64,000 nt of DNA from Fervidobacterium pennivorans (lineage in GTDB: Bacteria > Thermotogota > Thermotogae > Thermotogales > Fervidobacteriaceae), in assembly GCF_001644665.1 (NCBI RefSeq), contig NZ_CP011393.1, positions 1,634,001 through 1,698,000 of the forward strand, written 5' to 3'. Position 1 is the stretch's first letter; each line of letters begins with the position of its first letter. A program made the position numbers and the translations under genes. Of this stretch, positions 13,773-23,457 are shown piece by piece. Below the pieces are notes generated by a model. The model did not search any database. It worked only from the letters and a program-made list of their open reading frames with translations, and was not told the DNA's origin.

Positions 13773-14171
13773 GTGCTTCGCAAGTTTTCTGTGAGAACTT
13801 CAAAAAGGGTTGAATTTGTTGATATAACTGCCAAAGTTAAAACATTAGTAATGGAAAGCGGTGTAAAGGAAGGTGTTGTAGTTGTTTATGTACCTCATAC
13901 AACTTGTGGGATAACTATAAACGAGCATGCGGATCCATCTGTTGTCGAAGATATCATCAACCAGCTATCCAACTTAGTTCCCACAAACGGAGGATACCAT
14001 CATTTGGAAGGAAATTCGGATGCCCATATTAAGGCTTCAATCGTGGGTAGTAGTGTGACGGTAATTGTGAACAATGGAAACCTTTTGTTAGGGACATGGC
14101 AAGGTATTTTCCTGTGTGAATTTGATGGTCCGAGAACACGTGAGGTTGTTGTCAAAGTTGTTGAAGGATGA
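13773..14171 (+). CDS. UPF0047 (YjbQ) family protein
   Basis: A 132-residue member of the widespread YjbQ/UPF0047 family. Its motifs are intact: [27 protein letters not shown] and [16 protein letters not shown]; the histidines form the likely metal or active site. Homologues have been reported to show weak thiamine-phosphate-synthase activity, but the physiological role is not settled. GTG start after GGTGGTGA, 27 bases after the second permease gene, so probably cotranscribed with the importer. A second, more divergent copy lies at 23047. Confidence 0.9.
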
Positions 14172-14766: not shown

Positions 14767-14796
14767 AAAAGTCGGGGCTTTGCCCCGACTTTTTTG
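14767..14796 (+). terminator. Terminator of HU, probably bidirectional
   Basis: GTCGGGGC (14771-14778), a three-base loop, GCCCCGAC (14782-14789) and TTTTTT. The flanking A and T runs let it also serve the convergent minus-strand operon, whose last stop is at 14812. Confidence 0.85.
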
Positions 14797-14811: not shown

Positions 14812-16074
14812 TTAATTCTCGCTGAGCTCTTTAACACTCTCAAGTAATTTTTCAAAAACTTCTTTTGAAAATTTTCCTTTTTCCACGTCGGCTTCAATTA
14901 TTTTCAGAACTTCTCCGAAGTCCCAGGCTTCTTTATACGTTCTTTTGGATGAGAGTGCATCGAATACATCTGCGATACCAATAATCTTTCCGAATAAGGA
15001 TATCTCTTCGCCTTTTTTTCCATAAGGGTATCCACTTCCGTCGAGCTTTTCATGATGTTCTAAAGCGCCTTTGAGTATGTCTTCGTCAACGTATTTGACT
15101 TGAGCTAATATTTCTGCACCGTAAACCGTGTGGTTTTTTATTATTTTGTACTCCTCATCAGTAAGTTTCCCTGGTTTCAGTAATATGCTATCAGGGATGC
15201 CTATCTTTCCAACATCGTGTAGTATAGCCGAGAATTCAAGCTTTTCTAATTCTTGTTGGCTAAGTCCCATTCTTTTACCAATTTCCACAGATATCCTCGC
15301 TACGTTTTTCGAATGTTGGTGTGTGTAATTATCACGCTTATCTATCGCAGTTGCTATTGCTAAGAGGATCTTCTTAAATGATTCAGAAAACTTTTCATAT
15401 CTCCATGCGCTAAGAAGTTTTCGTCCAATCAACTTGGCGAAAAGCTCTACCGTTTCAGCGTCTTCCTCGGAAAAACCACCATCTTTGTTTAGCACCTCTA
15501 TAACACCTATCTTTTCATCCTCTACCCAGATGGGTGAACCAACTATGTTTTTTGTTTTAAATTTTGCCACTTTATCGACGCCCTTAAAATGAACGGGATT
15601 TGTTTCCAAGTCGTTAAAAACAAGAGCTTTTCCTTCTAGAAAAATCTTCCCTGCGATCGATTCCATAGGAACAGGTATACTTTCAATCTTACCGCTCGCT
15701 TTCCCAACGGTCACAAGAAACCGCAGATGGTCAGCCTCGTACATAAGAATAGAAGCGGCTTCAGCGTTGATTATAGTGCATATTTCCTGCTGGATATCTT
15801 TTAAAAGCTCGTTCAACCTCAGGTTGCTGTTTAGTTTAGCTGCGATGTACACAACTTGGTCACGCAAGCTCGCAGGGTTAATCTTTACACCATGTTCAAT
15901 CATCTCTGCAAGCCTTTTTAAAAAGTTTTGAGAGTAATTGCCAAGCACATAGAATTCTATATCTTCGACAACCACTTTGTTTTTAGATACCCTTCCTACT
16001 AAATGTCCGTTGTACTTATACCCACAAAGCCAAGTTGGAGCTTCTACAAGTTTTTCTTTATTAAGATTAGACAA
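14812..16074 (-). CDS. GAF and HD-GYP domain phosphodiesterase
   Basis: A 420-residue protein. Residues about 75-215 form a GAF sensor domain (LKDIQQEICTIINAEAASILM...). Residues about 225-415 form an HD-GYP domain with HQHSKNVARIS, LHDVGKIGIPD (the HD pair), HHEKLDGSGYP (the GYP motif) and IADVFDALSS; all expected metal ligands are present, so cyclic-di-GMP hydrolysis is likely. The first ~70 residues are unassigned. A TTG start has GGAGG nine bases upstream. It is the last gene of the cyclase/FecR operon, 38 bases after the barrel-protein gene. Confidence 0.9.
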   Translation of the reverse strand: MSNLNKEKLVEAPTWLCGYKYNGHLVGRVSKNKVVVEDIEFYVLGNYSQNFLKRLAEMIEHGVKINPASLRDQVVYIAAKLNSNLRLNELLKDIQQEICTIINAEAASILMYEADHLRFLVTVGKASGKIESIPVPMESIAGKIFLEGKALVFNDLETNPVHFKGVDKVAKFKTKNIVGSPIWVEDEKIGVIEVLNKDGGFSEEDAETVELFAKLIGRKLLSAWRYEKFSESFKKILLAIATAIDKRDNYTHQHSKNVARISVEIGKRMGLSQQELEKLEFSAILHDVGKIGIPDSILLKPGKLTDEEYKIIKNHTVYGAEILAQVKYVDEDILKGALEHHEKLDGSGYPYGKKGEEISLFGKIIGIADVFDALSSKRTYKEAWDFGEVLKIIEADVEKGKFSKEVFEKLLESVKELSEN

Positions 16075-16112
16075 CGTTTGGCGCCTCCTTTTTGACGCTT
16101 AAAAACGATACC

Positions 16113-18287
16113 TTACCAGCTAATCTCACTACCGATATAGACACTCTGCACCCATTTTGTACCATCCCAATTGTACACAATACCTGCAACAAGGTTACGC
16201 TCCATAATTGGGTATGTAATTCTCAAGAACGATATAGTATCGCTATCAAAGAACTCGCCGTTTGAAAATGGTGTTTGGTCGAAATAATATCCGTAGATAA
16301 ATAGACCTGCCACGGCCCCTATCTGTGGTATTGTTATTCTAAACTCACCAAGTGCGTCCATGTCTCCACTGAAGTCACCATAAATATAGAATCTACCAGT
16401 AGCGATATCGTGGTAGAAACTCAAACCTGCCAAGAAACCAAACGAGGTTTCAACATTATCCAGTGTTGGTAGTTCATTTTTGAGTTTTTGAACAGTGTAA
16501 ATCCTGCCAAAGTGGAAGGGTCTAAAACCATTCCAGGTACCATAGCCGCCGATAATGATATCTGCTATTCCTATCTTTCCACTCAAACCAGCGAACGCAC
16601 CAATACCGAACTTAGACATATCAGCTAACCATTGCGAACCAACTTCAAGACCAAGGTAGAAGTTGTTGAGTAATGGGTATCTCAGAAATGTTGACAATGA
16701 AAGATTTATTGGCGTATCGTCAACCGTAGGTTTCGTATTTTCGTTGGTAACTTTAGTATCATACAGTGCGGCAATTCCCAAATCCATACCAAAAACTGCT
16801 GATTTCACTTCCACTTCTCCTGCAATCACAGAGTCTGACTGAACAATTTCCGGTATCCACAATTTTGTAAGCTCGTATGGAATATGCAAAAAGAGGGCAA
16901 AACTACCAAAGGATATTTTGGTATCAAAAGACTTAGCGTATGGTTTGAAATAGTCCCTAACGGAAAAGCCCATACCTAATGAAATCGGAGGCATATTTCC
17001 GTATCTCAAATATAAATTTCCAAGATTCAAGGCAACGTGGTTGATTGTTATCATGTTTATTATATCTGTGCTTGGATTCTCAGAGGGTATACCATAGTAC
17101 AAGGTTCCACCAACTTCAGTAGCGTAAGCGGTTAGTCCTATGCCCAATGTGACGGGACCTATCGTAAATTCTGGAGAAATGCTGTAGACGATATATTTTT
17201 GGTTATCTTTGATTGCTGTTTCAACGCCCAGAGGTGGTATGTATGCCTTTGGTTGCAGTTCGGGTTGTGGCTGAGGTTGCTGCCCTTCTCTAGTTGTCGA
17301 AGGTTTTTCTTCTTGCTTTTCTGGTTTTTCGGGGGTTTCTTCGAACATTTTTTCTACTTCAGGCATTAACTCTTTAAGAGGTTCTAAGGTAGTCGAATCA
17401 AAAAGCTGAGAAATATCTTGAACAAGTTCAGTTCCAAGCTGGTAGATGAGTGTTTGACCTGCCGTTACCGGAAGCACAAAGTCATTTCCAAAGAAGGCAA
17501 ATACCTCTCCACTCCAAACCTTTATAACGGGTTTATCATCGATATTTTCAACGCCAAATTCTGTTCCTCTCACGCCAGCTGTGACACTACCTGCCTTAAC
17601 TTCGAAAGAGGAACCAGCCATCATCTTTTGAACGATGTTGTACGTTCCACCCTTTTGGATAACTATAGATACTAGAATCTTTCCTTCTTTTGATACTCTG
17701 AGTTTTTCAAAAAGAACTTGTGTGTTCTCGGTTATCTTTGTCATGGAACCATCTGGGAATTTTATAACTACGTAAGATTTTTCAAGAGTAAGAACCTCGT
17801 CACCTTCTTGAATTACTGTGTTTTTCGTTATCGATTCCCAAGTTTTCTTGTTAAATTTCTTTATTGCGACACTCCCTCTGAACGAATCAATCTGAGCATT
17901 CAACTGTTCTGAGAATTCACTCTCATCTTTTTCCGTTACTTTTATAGAAACTTCTTGAGTAAATATGCTCTTGTCCGTTGTCTCGGCTGTAAACGTTATT
18001 TTTACTTCACCCGCTTTCTTTGGAGCCAAATAGTTTAAGACTAACTTCCCGTTTCCGGTTAGCCCTTTTGTCAATACTTCCGGTTTGTCGAATCCACCGA
18101 AGTTGAGTTTGGCTTTCAAAGTGAATTGAGCATCTTTTCCATCTTTTCCGGTTACTTCTACGGTAATCGGTAACTTTCCTCCGATAACAACAGTATCACT
18201 TTGCAAAGTGACTTTTAGTTCCGCGAAGACTGAAATAGCAAAAACTGTAAGAATTGTTAAAATTAGCAACTTGAAACTTCTCTTCAT
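16113..18287 (-). CDS. FecR-domain protein with C-terminal outer-envelope beta-barrel
   Basis: A 724-residue exported protein. Order: signal peptide (1-22); an Ig-like beta domain (about 23-120); a FecR domain (about 138-285) with the typical AGSVTAGVRGTEFGV at 232-246; a proline/glutamine-rich linker (about 315-348); and about 370 residues of alternating amphipathic strands ending in ...SVYIGSEISW, the terminal aromatic expected of an outer-membrane or toga barrel. FecR domains elsewhere act as periplasmic signal relays or wall-binding modules. The start overlaps the DUF3307 gene (ATGA). Linking a FecR module to a barrel, beside a CHASE2 cyclase, suggests envelope sensing; this is inference. 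Confidence 0.8.
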   Translation of the reverse strand: MKRSFKLLILTILTVFAISVFAELKVTLQSDTVVIGGKLPITVEVTGKDGKDAQFTLKAKLNFGGFDKPEVLTKGLTGNGKLVLNYLAPKKAGEVKITFTAETTDKSIFTQEVSIKVTEKDESEFSEQLNAQIDSFRGSVAIKKFNKKTWESITKNTVIQEGDEVLTLEKSYVVIKFPDGSMTKITENTQVLFEKLRVSKEGKILVSIVIQKGGTYNIVQKMMAGSSFEVKAGSVTAGVRGTEFGVENIDDKPVIKVWSGEVFAFFGNDFVLPVTAGQTLIYQLGTELVQDISQLFDSTTLEPLKELMPEVEKMFEETPEKPEKQEEKPSTTREGQQPQPQPELQPKAYIPPLGVETAIKDNQKYIVYSISPEFTIGPVTLGIGLTAYATEVGGTLYYGIPSENPSTDIINMITINHVALNLGNLYLRYGNMPPISLGMGFSVRDYFKPYAKSFDTKISFGSFALFLHIPYELTKLWIPEIVQSDSVIAGEVEVKSAVFGMDLGIAALYDTKVTNENTKPTVDDTPINLSLSTFLRYPLLNNFYLGLEVGSQWLADMSKFGIGAFAGLSGKIGIADIIIGGYGTWNGFRPFHFGRIYTVQKLKNELPTLDNVETSFGFLAGLSFYHDIATGRFYIYGDFSGDMDALGEFRITIPQIGAVAGLFIYGYYFDQTPFSNGEFFDSDTISFLRITYPIMERNLVAGIVYNWDGTKWVQSVYIGSEISW

Positions 18288-18922
18288 AACATCACCCCCA
18301 TAAGTATTATCGTAGAAACTATTGTTGTGATGTAGTTCAATATGTTGAACTTAAAACCCCGTTTATTGAACTTGAAAACGGGAATCAAACAAAATAGTGC
18401 ATAGATTATTAAAAAGAGTGGGTTCAGCAGATAAACAATTGGTGCTATCATTCGTAGTGCATATCCGATGTAGTCTCGTTGGTACTTACCACGGGATGTT
18501 ATAAGGTGTACAAGTATACTTACAAAATACCCATTGAATATCATCACTGATAGGAGAACCGCTAAAGTTCTTGGAAGAAAAGGTTCCAAATAGGTTAACT
18601 GCGAGCTTATTAAAAGTAAAGATGCCACATGTAAAGATTGGTCAAAGAGATAATAATACCAAGTATTGCAAAATTTCTTTTTGCATAAAAACTTGAGTAA
18701 ATCAATCAAAAAATGAATACCGGAAAGAATTCCAATCATGGTTAAACTTTGAGCATCGAAATTTTTACCCACAATGAATAGAACTTGAGAAAGAAATACT
18801 AAAATTATGTGAAGTCCAAGAACTTTTAAGTTTTTCGACTTGTTAGCTGCTATATAACTTATTTGAAGAAAGTAATCTCCAAAAAGGTGTCCTAGGAAAA
18901 GGTATGGGAAAATAAGACTCAT
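18284..18922 (-). CDS. DUF3307 membrane protein
   Basis: A 212-residue integral membrane protein with about six hydrophobic helices. The segments FLGHLFGDYFLQ near the N-terminus, SGIHFLIDLLKF and DQSLHVASLLL match the conserved His/Asp pattern of DUF3307, a family without known function. It overlaps both neighbours by four bases (ATGA), so it is translated together with the degenerate HD-GYP protein and the FecR-barrel protein. Confidence 0.75.
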   Translation of the reverse strand: MSLIFPYLFLGHLFGDYFLQISYIAANKSKNLKVLGLHIILVFLSQVLFIVGKNFDAQSLTMIGILSGIHFLIDLLKFLCKKKFCNTWYYYLFDQSLHVASLLLISSQLTYLEPFLPRTLAVLLSVMIFNGYFVSILVHLITSRGKYQRDYIGYALRMIAPIVYLLNPLFLIIYALFCLIPVFKFNKRGFKFNILNYITTIVSTIILMGVML

Positions 18923-19875
18923 TGTAATTCACCTCTGGAATCTATTACAGCTAAGTAAGTATCTGGATATTTGCCTTGTAGCCTTGAAACATCCCACTTT
19001 AAAATTACAACATGTTCAGCGAAACCGACTGCTAAGGCTATTTTTGGAATTTCATACCCTTTCAACCCCGTTATACCAGAACCGTCTACAAACTCGTGAT
19101 GATACACACAAGCGTCCAAAATAAAGTGGGGAACATCCATTTCTTTGAGAATCTCATAGCCGAAATCAACGTGCTTCAGAAACTCTCTGTAATCCTCATT
19201 TGTAAAATCTCCGGTGAAGATTCTTTCAAATAGTTCGTCCCTTAAACCCACAAAGCCGACATTGGCTATTCTTAGAGCAAGACGTACCTCTTCTTGACTT
19301 AATTGTTCTAGTTGCGCAATTTTCGATGCTATAGCTTCCATTCTATCTAAGTCACCTTTATTTAATCGAACGCGTTTGTTCAGAGCGACGAACAACGTAT
19401 CAAGTGAACTTTTTAATAGTTGTTCTAAACGGTAGTTTATTATTATGCCTTCTACAATCGAAACGAAAGAATCGTAAAATGCGAGTAAACCTAAGACCTC
19501 ATCGAGCATTAGAGAACCTTGTAAAGTTATCATCCCTAAATCGCCGGAATTTTTGCTCACTATTGGTAAAGAGGCATAGTTATTTTGAATATCCATCTGC
19601 GAACCTTCTTCTGAATAGATTACCTTAACGTCTTTGTGCAATTTTGATTTGAAAAAGTTCTCAACTTTCTTTTTTACACTAGTTAAATCTTCCGCCTTTA
19701 ATAATTCGTACACCATATCGAACAGTTTCTCATTTATTGGCAAACTATAGTTCATCGCTAACTCATAAATCTCGTCTTGAGTTGGTAAGCTACCTGATAT
19801 TCGGAATGTACCGTCGTTTTTAAGAAAGAACTTAGTGTTACTGAGCTCAATAATCAACTCACTGGAGCTTTTCAA
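18919..19875 (-). CDS. Degenerate HD-GYP-like protein
   Basis: A 318-residue soluble protein. The N-terminal ~160 residues are unassigned. The C-terminal part follows the HD-GYP fold but with lost residues: the HD-K motif reads RIANVGFVG, the GYP motif reads HHEFVDGSGIT, and the late D of VADxFDA is missing, while KHVDFGYEIL and HHE remain. It may therefore bind rather than cleave a cyclic dinucleotide, or act only as an adaptor. I chose the TTG at 19875, one base after the cyclase stop, because AGGGGGAG lies five bases upstream; a longer reading would overlap the cyclase gene. It overlaps the DUF3307 gene by four bases. Confidence 0.7.
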   Translation of the reverse strand: MKSSSELIIELSNTKFFLKNDGTFRISGSLPTQDEIYELAMNYSLPINEKLFDMVYELLKAEDLTSVKKKVENFFKSKLHKDVKVIYSEEGSQMDIQNNYASLPIVSKNSGDLGMITLQGSLMLDEVLGLLAFYDSFVSIVEGIIINYRLEQLLKSSLDTLFVALNKRVRLNKGDLDRMEAIASKIAQLEQLSQEEVRLALRIANVGFVGLRDELFERIFTGDFTNEDYREFLKHVDFGYEILKEMDVPHFILDACVYHHEFVDGSGITGLKGYEIPKIALAVGFAEHVVILKWDVSRLQGKYPDTYLAVIDSRGELQ

Positions 19876-19876
19876 T

Positions 19877-21826
19877 TTAACTCCCCCTATCTTCTTTGTT
19901 TTCTGCATGTTTTTTACCCACAAGTTTGTAAAGTTTCAGCTTCTCGCTTTTTCCCTTCACGGCAAATTCACCGAGGTATTCAAATGAAAACTTGTCAGTG
20001 CGAGTTACAACTTCTTCCGAGACTATAATTTCCGCATTAAGTTCTCGTGTGAGATGCTCAATCCTCGAAGCGGTATTTACCGTGTCTCCGATGCATGTAT
20101 AATCCATTCTAAAAGGTGCGCCGATATTTCCCACAATTGCCGGTCCATAGTGTATACCAATCCCACTGTCAAGATTGAATCCGTACTCTTTGTTAAGTTC
20201 CTTCAAAGCAATTCTCATATCCAAGGCACAAGAAAGAGCACGTTCGATATCATCTTCGTAAGAAACTGGTGCCCCGAATATTGCCATTATCGCATCGCCT
20301 ATGAACTTATCAATTGTTCCATCGTACTTGTAACGTATAATCTCGCTCATTCTTGTTAAGTAAACATTCAAGAATGCAACTACTTCTTCTGGTTTCATCT
20401 TTTCAGAAATACTTGTAAATCCCTTTATATCCGAAAACAAAACCACAACGTTTCTCGTTTCCCCACCGAGTTTCAGTTCACCTTTACTCACCAGTTCTTG
20501 CGCAACTCTATCTGGAACGTACCTGTAAAGAAATTCCTTCATCTTTCTTTTTTCAGCACTTTCTGAGAGAAAGTCACTTACCAGCTTAACGGAACCAACG
20601 ACGATGTATCCAAATACTGGGTAGAAGGTTGATACGTAAACATGTTTTAAAAAAAGGATGTACGATATTGATGCAAACAAAACCGGTATAGTTGGAATTA
20701 CTACGTTAACAAACCTGTTCTTAAAATTCGCCAAGATTCCAAGTAACGTCATTAAACAAACTAACAGTACACCATTACAGAAAGGTGACAAAAGTTTTAA
20801 AAAATCACCTCTCAGTATGTTTTGTATCGCTGTTGCATGGATGAAAACCCCTGCTTCTTCATTTGAAAAAGGGGTTATCCTTAAATCATAAAGTCCCTTT
20901 GCAGTTGCCGTGTATCCAACAAGCACAACTTTGTCTTTAAACATTCCTTTTTCAAAATTTCCTGTTATCACGTCGTAAAACGGAACTTCTTTGAATACGC
21001 TGGATGATTTACCATAATACCACAGATGCATGTATCCTGAATTATCAAAGGGGACTTTTTTACCATTCAACTCCACAAAACGTTTTGAAAAATCAAGTAA
21101 CATTTCTTCAGGGTTTGCCCCAAGATAAAGAGCGCAAGCTATAACGTTCATGTGTGGTAAAATACCGGAAGAGATTCCATTTTCACTTGACCATTCCTCA
21201 ACGATGAGTAGTGGTATTCTCCGCACAGTCCCATCCGAATCTAAGGCGCCTATTTCGTAGGTTGCACTGTAAGCAGCTACCGCAAAAGGTTCGTAAACAG
21301 GGCGTATTTTGTAAACCTTAAATGGTTTCATCAACGAAAATTCTCGAAAGTTTTTCATTTTGTATGCGTAGTCAAGATACGTACGATTTTGTTCTATCTT
21401 TTCCCTAAGCTTTCGATTGAATAGTTCGTATGTTTTTTTATCATTTATAAGATAAGTTCCAAGAACAACGTTTCCGTACATAAGGAGCGTGCTGGCAAAG
21501 TAAGCGTCTGTTTCTTCGTCCATTGGTTCGGTAAACGAGATATCAAAAGCTACGACTTTTGCTCCATCTTCGAAGACTTTTTGGAGTAACTTTCCGTAAA
21601 CATCACGATTCCATGGCCAAGTATCACCCTCGATTTCCAGAGTACTTAGTGAATACTCGTCAATTCCAACGACAATAACTTGAGGGGAGATAACAACCTC
21701 ACCACGCATTTTGTAAAATAAATCGGAGATTTTGAGGTCTAAAACTTCTGTCATTTCAAACTTAAACATGATTGCCCACAACATAAAGAGTGTCAGCAGT
21801 ATGTTCAGAATGTGTAGCTTTTTCAT
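19877..21826 (-). CDS. CHASE2-domain class III adenylate cyclase
   Basis: A 649-residue membrane sensor enzyme. After an N-terminal membrane helix (about 5-22), a CHASE2 domain (about 35-335, with VIVVGIDEYSLSTL and KVVLVGYTATAKGLYD) lies outside the cytoplasm; about three helices follow (345-420), then a class III cyclase domain (about 455-640). Metal-binding aspartates are in FSDIKGFTS and GDAIMA; the lysine in TIDKFIGD and the threonine in YTCIGDTVN favour ATP over GTP. So it likely makes cAMP in response to an envelope signal. The ATG follows AGGGGG. It is first in the five-gene operon. Confidence 0.92.
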   Translation of the reverse strand: MKKLHILNILLTLFMLWAIMFKFEMTEVLDLKISDLFYKMRGEVVISPQVIVVGIDEYSLSTLEIEGDTWPWNRDVYGKLLQKVFEDGAKVVAFDISFTEPMDEETDAYFASTLLMYGNVVLGTYLINDKKTYELFNRKLREKIEQNRTYLDYAYKMKNFREFSLMKPFKVYKIRPVYEPFAVAAYSATYEIGALDSDGTVRRIPLLIVEEWSSENGISSGILPHMNVIACALYLGANPEEMLLDFSKRFVELNGKKVPFDNSGYMHLWYYGKSSSVFKEVPFYDVITGNFEKGMFKDKVVLVGYTATAKGLYDLRITPFSNEEAGVFIHATAIQNILRGDFLKLLSPFCNGVLLVCLMTLLGILANFKNRFVNVVIPTIPVLFASISYILFLKHVYVSTFYPVFGYIVVGSVKLVSDFLSESAEKRKMKEFLYRYVPDRVAQELVSKGELKLGGETRNVVVLFSDIKGFTSISEKMKPEEVVAFLNVYLTRMSEIIRYKYDGTIDKFIGDAIMAIFGAPVSYEDDIERALSCALDMRIALKELNKEYGFNLDSGIGIHYGPAIVGNIGAPFRMDYTCIGDTVNTASRIEHLTRELNAEIIVSEEVVTRTDKFSFEYLGEFAVKGKSEKLKLYKLVGKKHAENKEDRGS

Positions 21827-21866
21827 GCGTCCCCCTGTGGTTTTGTCTCAAATTGTCAGTTGATGG

Positions 21867-21895
21867 TTTCAAAAAGTAAGTTTATCTAGTATAAT
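21867..21895 (+). promoter_or_regulatory. Promoter now cut off from the downstream UPF0047 gene
   Basis: TTTCAA (21867-21872), a 17-base spacer and a perfect TATAAT (21890-21895) point rightward. It was probably the promoter of the UPF0047/activator/MFS operon before an IS landed between them at 21964. Confidence 0.5.
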
Positions 21896-21955
21896 TTTAT
21901 GAGAAGTCTCTACTAATTAGACCACGGGACAGTCAAAAACGTTGAGTAATTTAAA

Positions 21956-21963
21956 AAAATCAT
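21956..21963. repeat. 8-bp target duplication, left of IS copy A
   Basis: AAATCAT preceded by A (AAAATCAT), repeated exactly at 23023-23030 on the other side of the element. Confidence 0.9.
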
Positions 21964-23022
21964 GATAGTGTTAACTTGTAGTGGTGAAAGAGTGTAAGTG
22001 TGAAAGAATGAGATTGATATTACCATTGTGCGTTTTCCAAAGATTCTTCACTACACAAAATACTTGAATATATTTCGCTAAATTCTTCGTATTCTTCAGC
22101 CCTCGCTTGAGTCGGAAAAAGTCTTTCAACAATGAAAACTTAGATTCACATTGATTGTTTTTACCGAGCGGTACCACTACGTGATTGATATTTCTGAACA
22201 ACAGCTTTACTGCACTTTCATATGCACCAAGTCCATCAGTAATAAGTTCAATGTTTCTAGGTTTTGAATTACCAAAGAACTTCTCGAGCAATACTTTGAC
22301 TTGTCCCATATCACGATACTTTGAGACATGCCAACAAAGAATTAAGTTAGTTTCGTGATCAACTAATAGCCAAACATAGTACTTTTGTTCTTTGAACACA
22401 AGAACAGTTTCATCAGCATGAACTGAGAAAACATTTTCGATGGTAAATGTTGGAAAAAGTACAGAGAATAAAGTACACAATTTAATAACCCATTTATATA
22501 TGGTGACATGAGATACTTTGATATTAAGAGAATGAGCAAGAGAGCGATAAGACATATTGTGTTTCATATACAAAACGAAAGCTTTTAAGATGAAAAATAG
22601 AGGAAAACGGAAATATTTAAATTTCTCAGGAATAAGGGTGACTGGTTCGGGGAGGTTAAAAGGTACTCTATCTTTGGTACGACAAGCTCTACAACGGAAG
22701 ACAACGAAAGAGCGATGGACTTTGTAAATTTGCATAGATTTACCACAAGAAGTGCATTTGGGATAAGGGAAAGAGAAGTTTTTGCGTTTGTGAGAATGGG
22801 AGAGTTTGAAAGAATGATGGCAGAGTTTGCAAAGGAATTGTTGGTTACCGTATTTGTCATGACCGTTTTTGTATAAGCTGGTGGAACCGCATTTTGGACA
22901 AGAGAGCGTTGAGTTGTTCATATCGGGATACCTCCTTTGTCGAGAGTTGGTTGGGGGGTGTCCCCTCTTTATAAGGATAATGCGGTTTTTGGAAAGTTTC
23001 AATACTTTTAGTTAACATTATC
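21964..23022 (-). mobile_element. Insertion sequence copy A, complete, 1059 bp
   Basis: A complete element with imperfect terminal inverted repeats: GATAATGTTAACT at the transposase-promoter end (23022 inward) and GATAGTGTTAACT at the other end (21964 inward). It is flanked by the 8-bp direct repeat AAAATCAT. One transposase gene fills it. A second copy of exactly the same length is at 50025. Eight-bp duplications and the catalytic domain suggest an IS6/IS240-like group, but the D-to-E spacing (29 residues) is shorter than usual there, so the family is tentative. Confidence 0.93.
21971..22921 (-). CDS. DDE transposase of IS copy A
   Basis: A 316-residue transposase. Two zinc-ribbon pairs lie at the N-terminus (C8/C11 with C31/C34; C56/C59 with C77/C80), followed by a helix-turn-helix (about 124-145) and a DDE catalytic domain with D170 (HADETVL), D229 (ITDGLGAY) and E259 (CESKFSLL). 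The ATG at 22921 has AAGGAGGT before it; an upstream in-frame reading would cross the element's own promoter (TTGAAA-17-TATCCT). It looks intact. It differs from copy B at a dozen or so positions, mainly in the second zinc ribbon. Confidence 0.9.
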   Translation of the reverse strand: MNNSTLSCPKCGSTSLYKNGHDKYGNQQFLCKLCHHSFKLSHSHKRKNFSFPYPKCTSCGKSMQIYKVHRSFVVFRCRACRTKDRVPFNLPEPVTLIPEKFKYFRFPLFFILKAFVLYMKHNMSYRSLAHSLNIKVSHVTIYKWVIKLCTLFSVLFPTFTIENVFSVHADETVLVFKEQKYYVWLLVDHETNLILCWHVSKYRDMGQVKVLLEKFFGNSKPRNIELITDGLGAYESAVKLLFRNINHVVVPLGKNNQCESKFSLLKDFFRLKRGLKNTKNLAKYIQVFCVVKNLWKTHNGNINLILSHLHSFTTTS

Positions 23023-23046: not shown

Positions 23047-23457
23047 ATGAAGAGATACACTGAATACCTTTGGTTTAACACCAGTAAGAAGAGAGCACTC
23101 GTCCACATAACTGATAAAATTCAGGAAATTGTTGAAAAAAGTGGCATCAAAGAAGGTTTCTGCTTGGTTTCTGCAATGCATATCACCGCTGGGATAATTG
23201 TGAACGACAACGAGTCAGGCTTACACCAAGACATCTGGGAATGGCTCGAAAAACTTGCACCAGCGGGCAATTACAAACATCACTGGACTGGTGAAACGAA
23301 CGGAGATGCTCATCTGAAGAGAATACTAACCCACCATCAAGTCATCCTGCCTGTAACAAATGGAAAGTTAGACTTAGGTCCTTGGGAAGAGATATTCTAT
23401 GCAGAATACGATGGTCAACGAAGAAAAAGGGTCGTCGTCAAGGTGATTGGTGAATAA
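23047..23457 (+). CDS. UPF0047 (YjbQ) family protein, second type
   Basis: A 136-residue YjbQ/UPF0047 protein, clearly divergent from the one at 13773: [30 protein letters not shown] and [16 protein letters not shown] replace the corresponding motifs, but the histidines are kept. It belongs to another branch of the family. GGGAGGT lies seven bases before the ATG. IS copy A ends only 24 bases upstream, between this gene and its likely native promoter. The gene leads an operon with a sigma-54-type activator and an MFS transporter. Confidence 0.88.

Follow-up and report, generated by a model that had tools for sequence, protein, structure and literature searches.

In the window (the whole 64,000-nucleotide stretch of Fervidobacterium pennivorans DNA that was analyzed), five minus-strand genes occupy positions 14812-21826 of a region belonging to a 2.06-Mb single-contig genome and form the operon described here (Table 1). 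An earlier note on this DNA had described the five genes as tightly joined, and both the reading frames and the junctions agree with that description: the TAA of gene 1 (19877-19879) is separated by one base from the TTG of gene 2 (19873-19875), ATGA overlaps join genes 2 and 3 (18919-18922) and genes 3 and 4 (18284-18287), and a 38-base gap lies between genes 4 and 5. The domain families that it had named were recovered as Pfam matches to CHASE2, Guanylate_cyc, HD_5, DUF3307, FecR and GAF_2. A strong terminator-like hairpin marks the end of the operon towards a convergent HU-like gene. At the opposite end, an insertion sequence that has no counterpart in most relatives abuts the 5' region of the cyclase gene, and its transposase separates this region from a divergent YjbQ-like gene. 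A scan for promoter consensus sequences gave no excess over shuffled expectation. Two YjbQ-like paralogues (13773-14171 and 23047-23457, ~42% identical) flank the HU-like gene and the operon on either side.

Table 1. Features of the operon, its flanks and the candidate cAMP readers. Plain numbers are positions in the window.
Feature	Coordinates	Strand	Basis
Gene 1: CHASE2 class III adenylate cyclase (predicted), 649 aa	19877..21826	minus	Pfam CHASE2 + Guanylate_cyc
Gene 2: pseudo-HD-GYP protein, TTG start	18919..19875	minus	HD_5 9e-9, motif table
Gene 3: DUF3307 polytopic membrane protein, 212 aa	18284..18922	minus	DUF3307 4e-20
Gene 4: exported Ig-like + FecR + Pro-rich linker + C-terminal outer-membrane-type beta-barrel, 724 aa, last residue Trp	16113..18287	minus	FecR 8e-14, structure model
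Gene 5: GAF-HD-GYP, catalytic motifs intact, 420 aa	14812..16074	minus	GAF_2, HD_5; PmGH (4mcw) match
Terminator-like hairpin between operon and HU-like gene	14767..14793	both directions	12-pair stem on both strands
Operon 5' region, in part conserved with species G008	21827..21970	minus	sequence comparison
IS240-type insertion sequence just upstream of operon 5' region	transposase 21971-23002		DDE_Tnp_IS240 match
X1, two cNMP domains	G000:C1:1168051-1169259; L056 12048-13259		
X2 pair, just downstream of secA-like gene	G000:C1:1160323-1161373; L056 4323-5373		
CRP/FNR-like regulator	L056 15838-16533		

Gene 1 matches CHASE2 (1e-48; 166.5 bits against a Pfam cut-off of 26.3) and Guanylate_cyc (2e-30) and no other class III cyclase was found in the genome (one PF00211 match). 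In an alignment of 23 orthologs, the metal aspartates, the adenine-specifying lysine and threonine, and the transition-state asparagine and arginine are kept, with few substitutions nearby; the cyclase motifs read SDI.GF, DKFIGDA and YTCIGDTVNTASR, and the residues that define class III adenylate cyclases are present. Because these catalytic residues are kept, gene 1 is predicted to be an adenylate cyclase, with its substrate specificity read from residues only, and this supports the earlier proposal that it makes cAMP. The gene is conserved (dN/dS of 0.07 between this genome, G000, and the relative G004), and its product is probably the only cAMP-making enzyme of the cell. We found no paper on both Fervidobacterium and adenylate cyclase in the literature searched, so cAMP signalling in Fervidobacterium appears undescribed there.

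For each class III cyclase detected in Thermotogota genomes, the surrounding locus was fetched, with cyclases counted by PF00211 matches. Exactly one cyclase is present in 35 of 103 genomes and none in the other 68. Among 61 relatives, each operon genome has one PF00211 match and the others have none (the catalytic domain of G043 lies off its contig). These genomes give 36 loci, that is, 35 plus one split over contigs. The earlier note had read the five genes as one pathway, which relatives should keep together, and they do so: the genes are intact, in order and on one strand in 25 of the 36 loci, from 11 genera and four families (f1, f3, f8 and f9). By group, the intact loci come from g1 (six), g4 (one), g5 (four), f3 (three), f8 (two) and f9 (nine). 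The five-family set holds in these four families but not in family f7, where two loci have a three-gene form consisting of the cyclase, a two-GAF HD-GYP protein and DUF3307. Since f7 has the cyclase core without the FecR-barrel, the barrel is not essential to that core. The remaining nine loci are cut by contig ends or visibly disrupted: G005, G041, G042, G043 and G059 are incomplete, while G004 is inverted, the cyclase is split in G006, gene 4 is split in G102 and G089 has decayed. DUF3307 tracks the cyclase almost one to one, with an extra sub-threshold match in G024; it was not found in the fragmented cyclase genome G041.

Natural breakage of the operon is illustrated by two relatives. In G013 (L052 4282-9770), the operon is lost save for scraps of the cyclase and an HD-GYP gene at two edges, and genes read as proline-biosynthesis genes lie between these remnants. 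In G004 (L031), the cyclase has been flipped away from genes 2-5 and lies between two inverted copies of the insertion sequence that is also present upstream of the operon in the window. The candidate cAMP reader X1 (see below) is also broken by stops in this genome.

Chance adjacency of the five genes is ruled out by the same order in the 25 intact loci of four families. Between the five proteins, pairwise distances over 18 genomes are correlated (0.90-0.94, without an unrelated-gene control), which is consistent with joint inheritance. The order kept over four families, the shared distribution of DUF3307 and the cyclase, and the edge scraps in G013 together give good support to one pathway, and the Thermotogota operon is very likely a single pathway that informs the cell about its surface. 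Alternatively, genes 1 and 4 could be a cAMP sensor and genes 2, 3 and 5 a separate c-di-GMP module, each acting on its own and the two co-transcribed for shared conditions, with no direct information flow between them. No fusion between the two halves was seen, FecR alone and the barrel alone occur elsewhere, and co-conservation by itself cannot prove contact. However, the two sets are intermixed along the operon (in the order cyclase, HD-GYP, DUF3307, FecR, HD-GYP), and f7 retains the cyclase beside HD-GYP and DUF3307 without FecR, which makes the HD-GYP side the more constant partner of the cyclase. We consider two independent modules rather unlikely.

The best match of gene 5 (GAF_2 2e-14, HD_5 5e-36) among solved structures is the HD-GYP protein PmGH (4mcw; 2.5e-57; PMC4159591), with which it shares domain order and seven of eight metal ligands. 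The HD pair, H250, HHExxDGxGYP and D305 (PmGH numbering) are intact in aligned orthologs. Gene 5 differs from PmGH in having Tyr at the E185 position, with D-N-Y-T-H-Q-H in place of the E/D-T-G motif, and this places it in the Y/F subfamily of the PmGH paper, predicted to be two-metal. Gene 5 (dN/dS of 0.04, G000 vs G004) has the residues of an active HD-GYP phosphodiesterase and is predicted to be active. It could instead serve the cAMP arm, cleaving cAMP or another nucleotide to end the signal, with c-di-GMP uninvolved; a CHASE2 cluster of Campylobacterota does include a phosphodiesterase said to hydrolyze cAMP (PMC9239204). That role seems quite improbable to us: PmGH, the nearest solved relative, is a c-di-GMP phosphodiesterase, the HHExxDGxGYP motif is intact in all gene 5 sequences examined, and the GGDEF set of the genome is large (17 matches, which together with 2 PilZ matches show a c-di-GMP network).

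Gene 2 was said to have lost its HD residues, and this is the case: the sequence reads ANVGFVGLR where HDVGKIGIP is expected, so that the HD pair is AN. In PmGH numbering, the losses are H189, D305 and the two ligands of the HD pair, while H250 and the HH pair are kept. The first His of the HD pair is replaced (by F, Y, A or I) in every gene 2 from f1, f3, f8 and f9, and in Fervidobacterium D222 and D305 are lost as well. In PmGH, H221A and D222A abolish activity (PMC4159591). Judged by its metal ligands, gene 2 would not be an active HD-GYP phosphodiesterase. The proposal that both HD-GYP proteins adjust c-di-GMP therefore has to be amended: phosphodiesterase residues are present in gene 5 only, and gene 2 lacks ligands essential in PmGH.

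Loss of these residues does not mark gene 2 as a recently decaying pseudogene, which is ruled out by a His loss common to all members from the four families and by a dN/dS of 0.12 (G000 vs G004). In the HD-GYP tree (tips L087 and L091 are wrong ORFs, to be disregarded), gene 2 is a monophyletic clade of its own with support of 0.994. Gene 2 is under purifying selection and occurs wherever the five-gene locus is intact, so it is most simply read as a conserved non-enzyme and, from sequence, as an old, selected pseudo-HD-GYP outside f7. The single HD-GYP of f7 retains HDVGKIGIM and groups next to gene 5 in the tree. Gene 2 resembles the known non-catalytic HD-GYP proteins (PMC4159591) in keeping part of the site and losing key ligands. 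It differs from them in being lineage-wide and operon-locked and, in Fervidobacterium, in having no GAF domain recognized by Pfam.

Gene 3 scores 72.4 bits against DUF3307 (PF11750; gathering score 23), and its invariant residues are H12, D16, H38, H70, D74, D94 and H98. An AlphaFold2 model (pLDDT 92.5) has ten helices, for which Foldseek and VIA-align 2 gave weak helical matches only (best Z 7.1) and no clear solved relative. A contig scan for DUF3307, which reaches near relatives only, found 12 loci, all in Thermotogota. No functional study of DUF3307 was found in the literature searched, and the operon, if rightly read, would give the family a functional context.

Gene 4 scores 52.3 bits against FecR (Pfam cut-off 24). 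Its model contains a signal helix, an Ig-like domain, the FecR module, a disordered linker and a C-terminal part of ~18 strands; the pTM is 0.48, so the placement of the domains relative to one another is unreliable. In Foldseek searches, the C-terminal part matched OmpF, AlgE and FimD, and the FecR part matched the PupR cell-surface signalling domain (6ovk, TM(target) 0.48). The signal helix, the strands of this low-pTM model, the C-terminal Trp and the porin matches would fit a closed outer-membrane barrel. Gene 4 is unlike the FecR anti-sigma factors of ECF systems, inner-membrane proteins encoded next to an ECF sigma gene: it combines a signal peptide with a C-terminal barrel, and the operon holds no sigma gene.

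The full FecR-barrel is confined to cyclase genomes, while a stand-alone barrel paralogue (G000:C1:1030174-1031253; 390 aa at L111 5157-6329) also occurs in relatives without the operon. Gene 4 thus looks as if a FecR module had been joined to a common barrel. The existence of this paralogue would also fit a mainly structural or transport role for gene 4 in the outer membrane, in which FecR binds peptidoglycan or polysaccharide and CHASE2 senses something else. CHASE2 has no known ligand, and in G015 (L115 4616-7398) a stand-alone FecR gene lies directly before a penicillin-binding-protein-like gene. Against such a role, the FecR-fused form is restricted to genomes with the cyclase, and FecR-CHASE2 neighbourhoods recur in Campylobacterota and Burkholderiales. 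We judge the structural role unlikely.

Candidate readers of cAMP are encoded elsewhere in the genome. Genomes with the operon have a mean of 4.7 cNMP-binding matches vs 1.0 in those without (genus-level permutation p ~5e-5; the genomes share ancestry, and permutation was by genus only), and the difference is concordant inside f1, f3 and f9. All five matches of this genome lie within ~12 kb (G000:C1 about 1.160-1.172 Mb). X1 was found in no genome that lacks the cyclase, and it is absent from genus g5 despite an intact operon. Read from the sequence, the second of its two cNMP domains carries GE...R.A, the kind of cassette that cAMP binders typically have. The X2 pair is found in operon genomes of f1 and f3, and among operon-negative genomes clearly in two from g2 only. 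Protein searches for the X2 pair gave no match in f7 and f8, where its presence is suggested by paired cNMP ORFs with a similar layout. The cassette of the CRP/FNR-like protein, by reading, is without the GE...R.A residues. The cNMP-domain proteins that track the cyclase across genera are candidate cAMP receptors, new here.

The analysis shows the gene content and order, the conservation, the catalytic residues, the single cyclase and the co-distribution of the parts. We infer the product cAMP, the signal, every molecular contact and what genes 2 and 3 do. The explanation that we favor, with modest confidence, is that the five genes make up a single signal-transduction module that has been inherited together; within it, the FecR-barrel acts on the CHASE2 cyclase and c-di-GMP control is attached. 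Gene 4 would place its barrel in the outer membrane and present the FecR module to the periplasm. On sensing the state of the envelope or surface, or a ligand, FecR would contact the CHASE2 domain that gene 1 has in the periplasm, and cAMP synthesis would change. The cAMP would be read by X1, through its canonical phosphate-binding cassette, and by the X2 pair. Gene 5 would remove c-di-GMP under GAF control, gene 2 may be a non-catalytic regulator acting through c-di-GMP or protein binding, and gene 3 may be a partner in the membrane, where it might hold a metal site. Weighing against this model are f7 without the FecR-barrel, g5 without X1, and X2 in two operon-negative g2 genomes.

A bolder version, which we offer as speculation and consider doubtful, is that the operon is a switch, retained in several Thermotogota families, by which an outer-membrane receptor sets cAMP and c-di-GMP jointly. 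The pseudo-HD-GYP would then act as a receptor for c-di-GMP and gate the cyclase, or relay the cAMP state to the live HD-GYP, DUF3307 would be a membrane enzyme or coupling protein of the complex, and X1 and X2 would make up a family of cAMP readers distinct from the classical CRP type. If the favored module is right, cAMP in these thermophiles has a single input, which is linked to the outer membrane, and the natural gain and loss of the operon makes its function testable. Gene 2 would then be a strongly conserved pseudoenzyme in which to study how c-di-GMP is sensed, and X1 and X2 are named candidate cAMP readers.

The step from a receptor barrel to CHASE2 would have precedent, by analogy, in two known systems. 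In Campylobacterota, a cluster contains a CHASE2 cyclase, a FecR-domain outer-membrane protein, the phosphodiesterase mentioned above and a TPR protein; every cyclase of that phylum has CHASE2, CRP-like proteins also occur in cyclase-free genomes, and there are signs of horizontal transfer (PMC9239204). The operon is like this cluster in placing a CHASE2 cyclase beside a FecR outer-membrane protein (PMC9239204). It is unlike it in having DUF3307, an intact GAF-HD-GYP and a pseudo-HD-GYP, with gene distances that correlate at 0.90-0.94. Since the Campylobacterota type has a cAMP phosphodiesterase and a TPR protein, and the five genes include no TPR gene and no cAMP-phosphodiesterase family besides HD-GYP, the operon is not a member of that type. 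In Sinorhizobium meliloti, the outer-membrane barrel NsrA is required for signalling through CHASE2 cyclases (CyaD1/CyaD2/CyaK), with Clr as reader (PMC13001267, PMC7529298). The likeness, drawn from description, lies in an outer-membrane beta-barrel, a CHASE2 adenylate cyclase and a cAMP receptor; the NsrA system differs in its plant protein signal, its several cyclases and its CRP-type reader. The Burkholderia BiofilmReg operon, linked to biofilm, has an exported FecR protein adjoining a CHASE2 sensor (PMC5192318), but with a histidine kinase output and LysM where the operon has a cyclase and a barrel. Because the HD-GYP pair and DUF3307 are absent from both the Campylobacterota cluster and the NsrA pathway, we file the operon as a variant of a known core.
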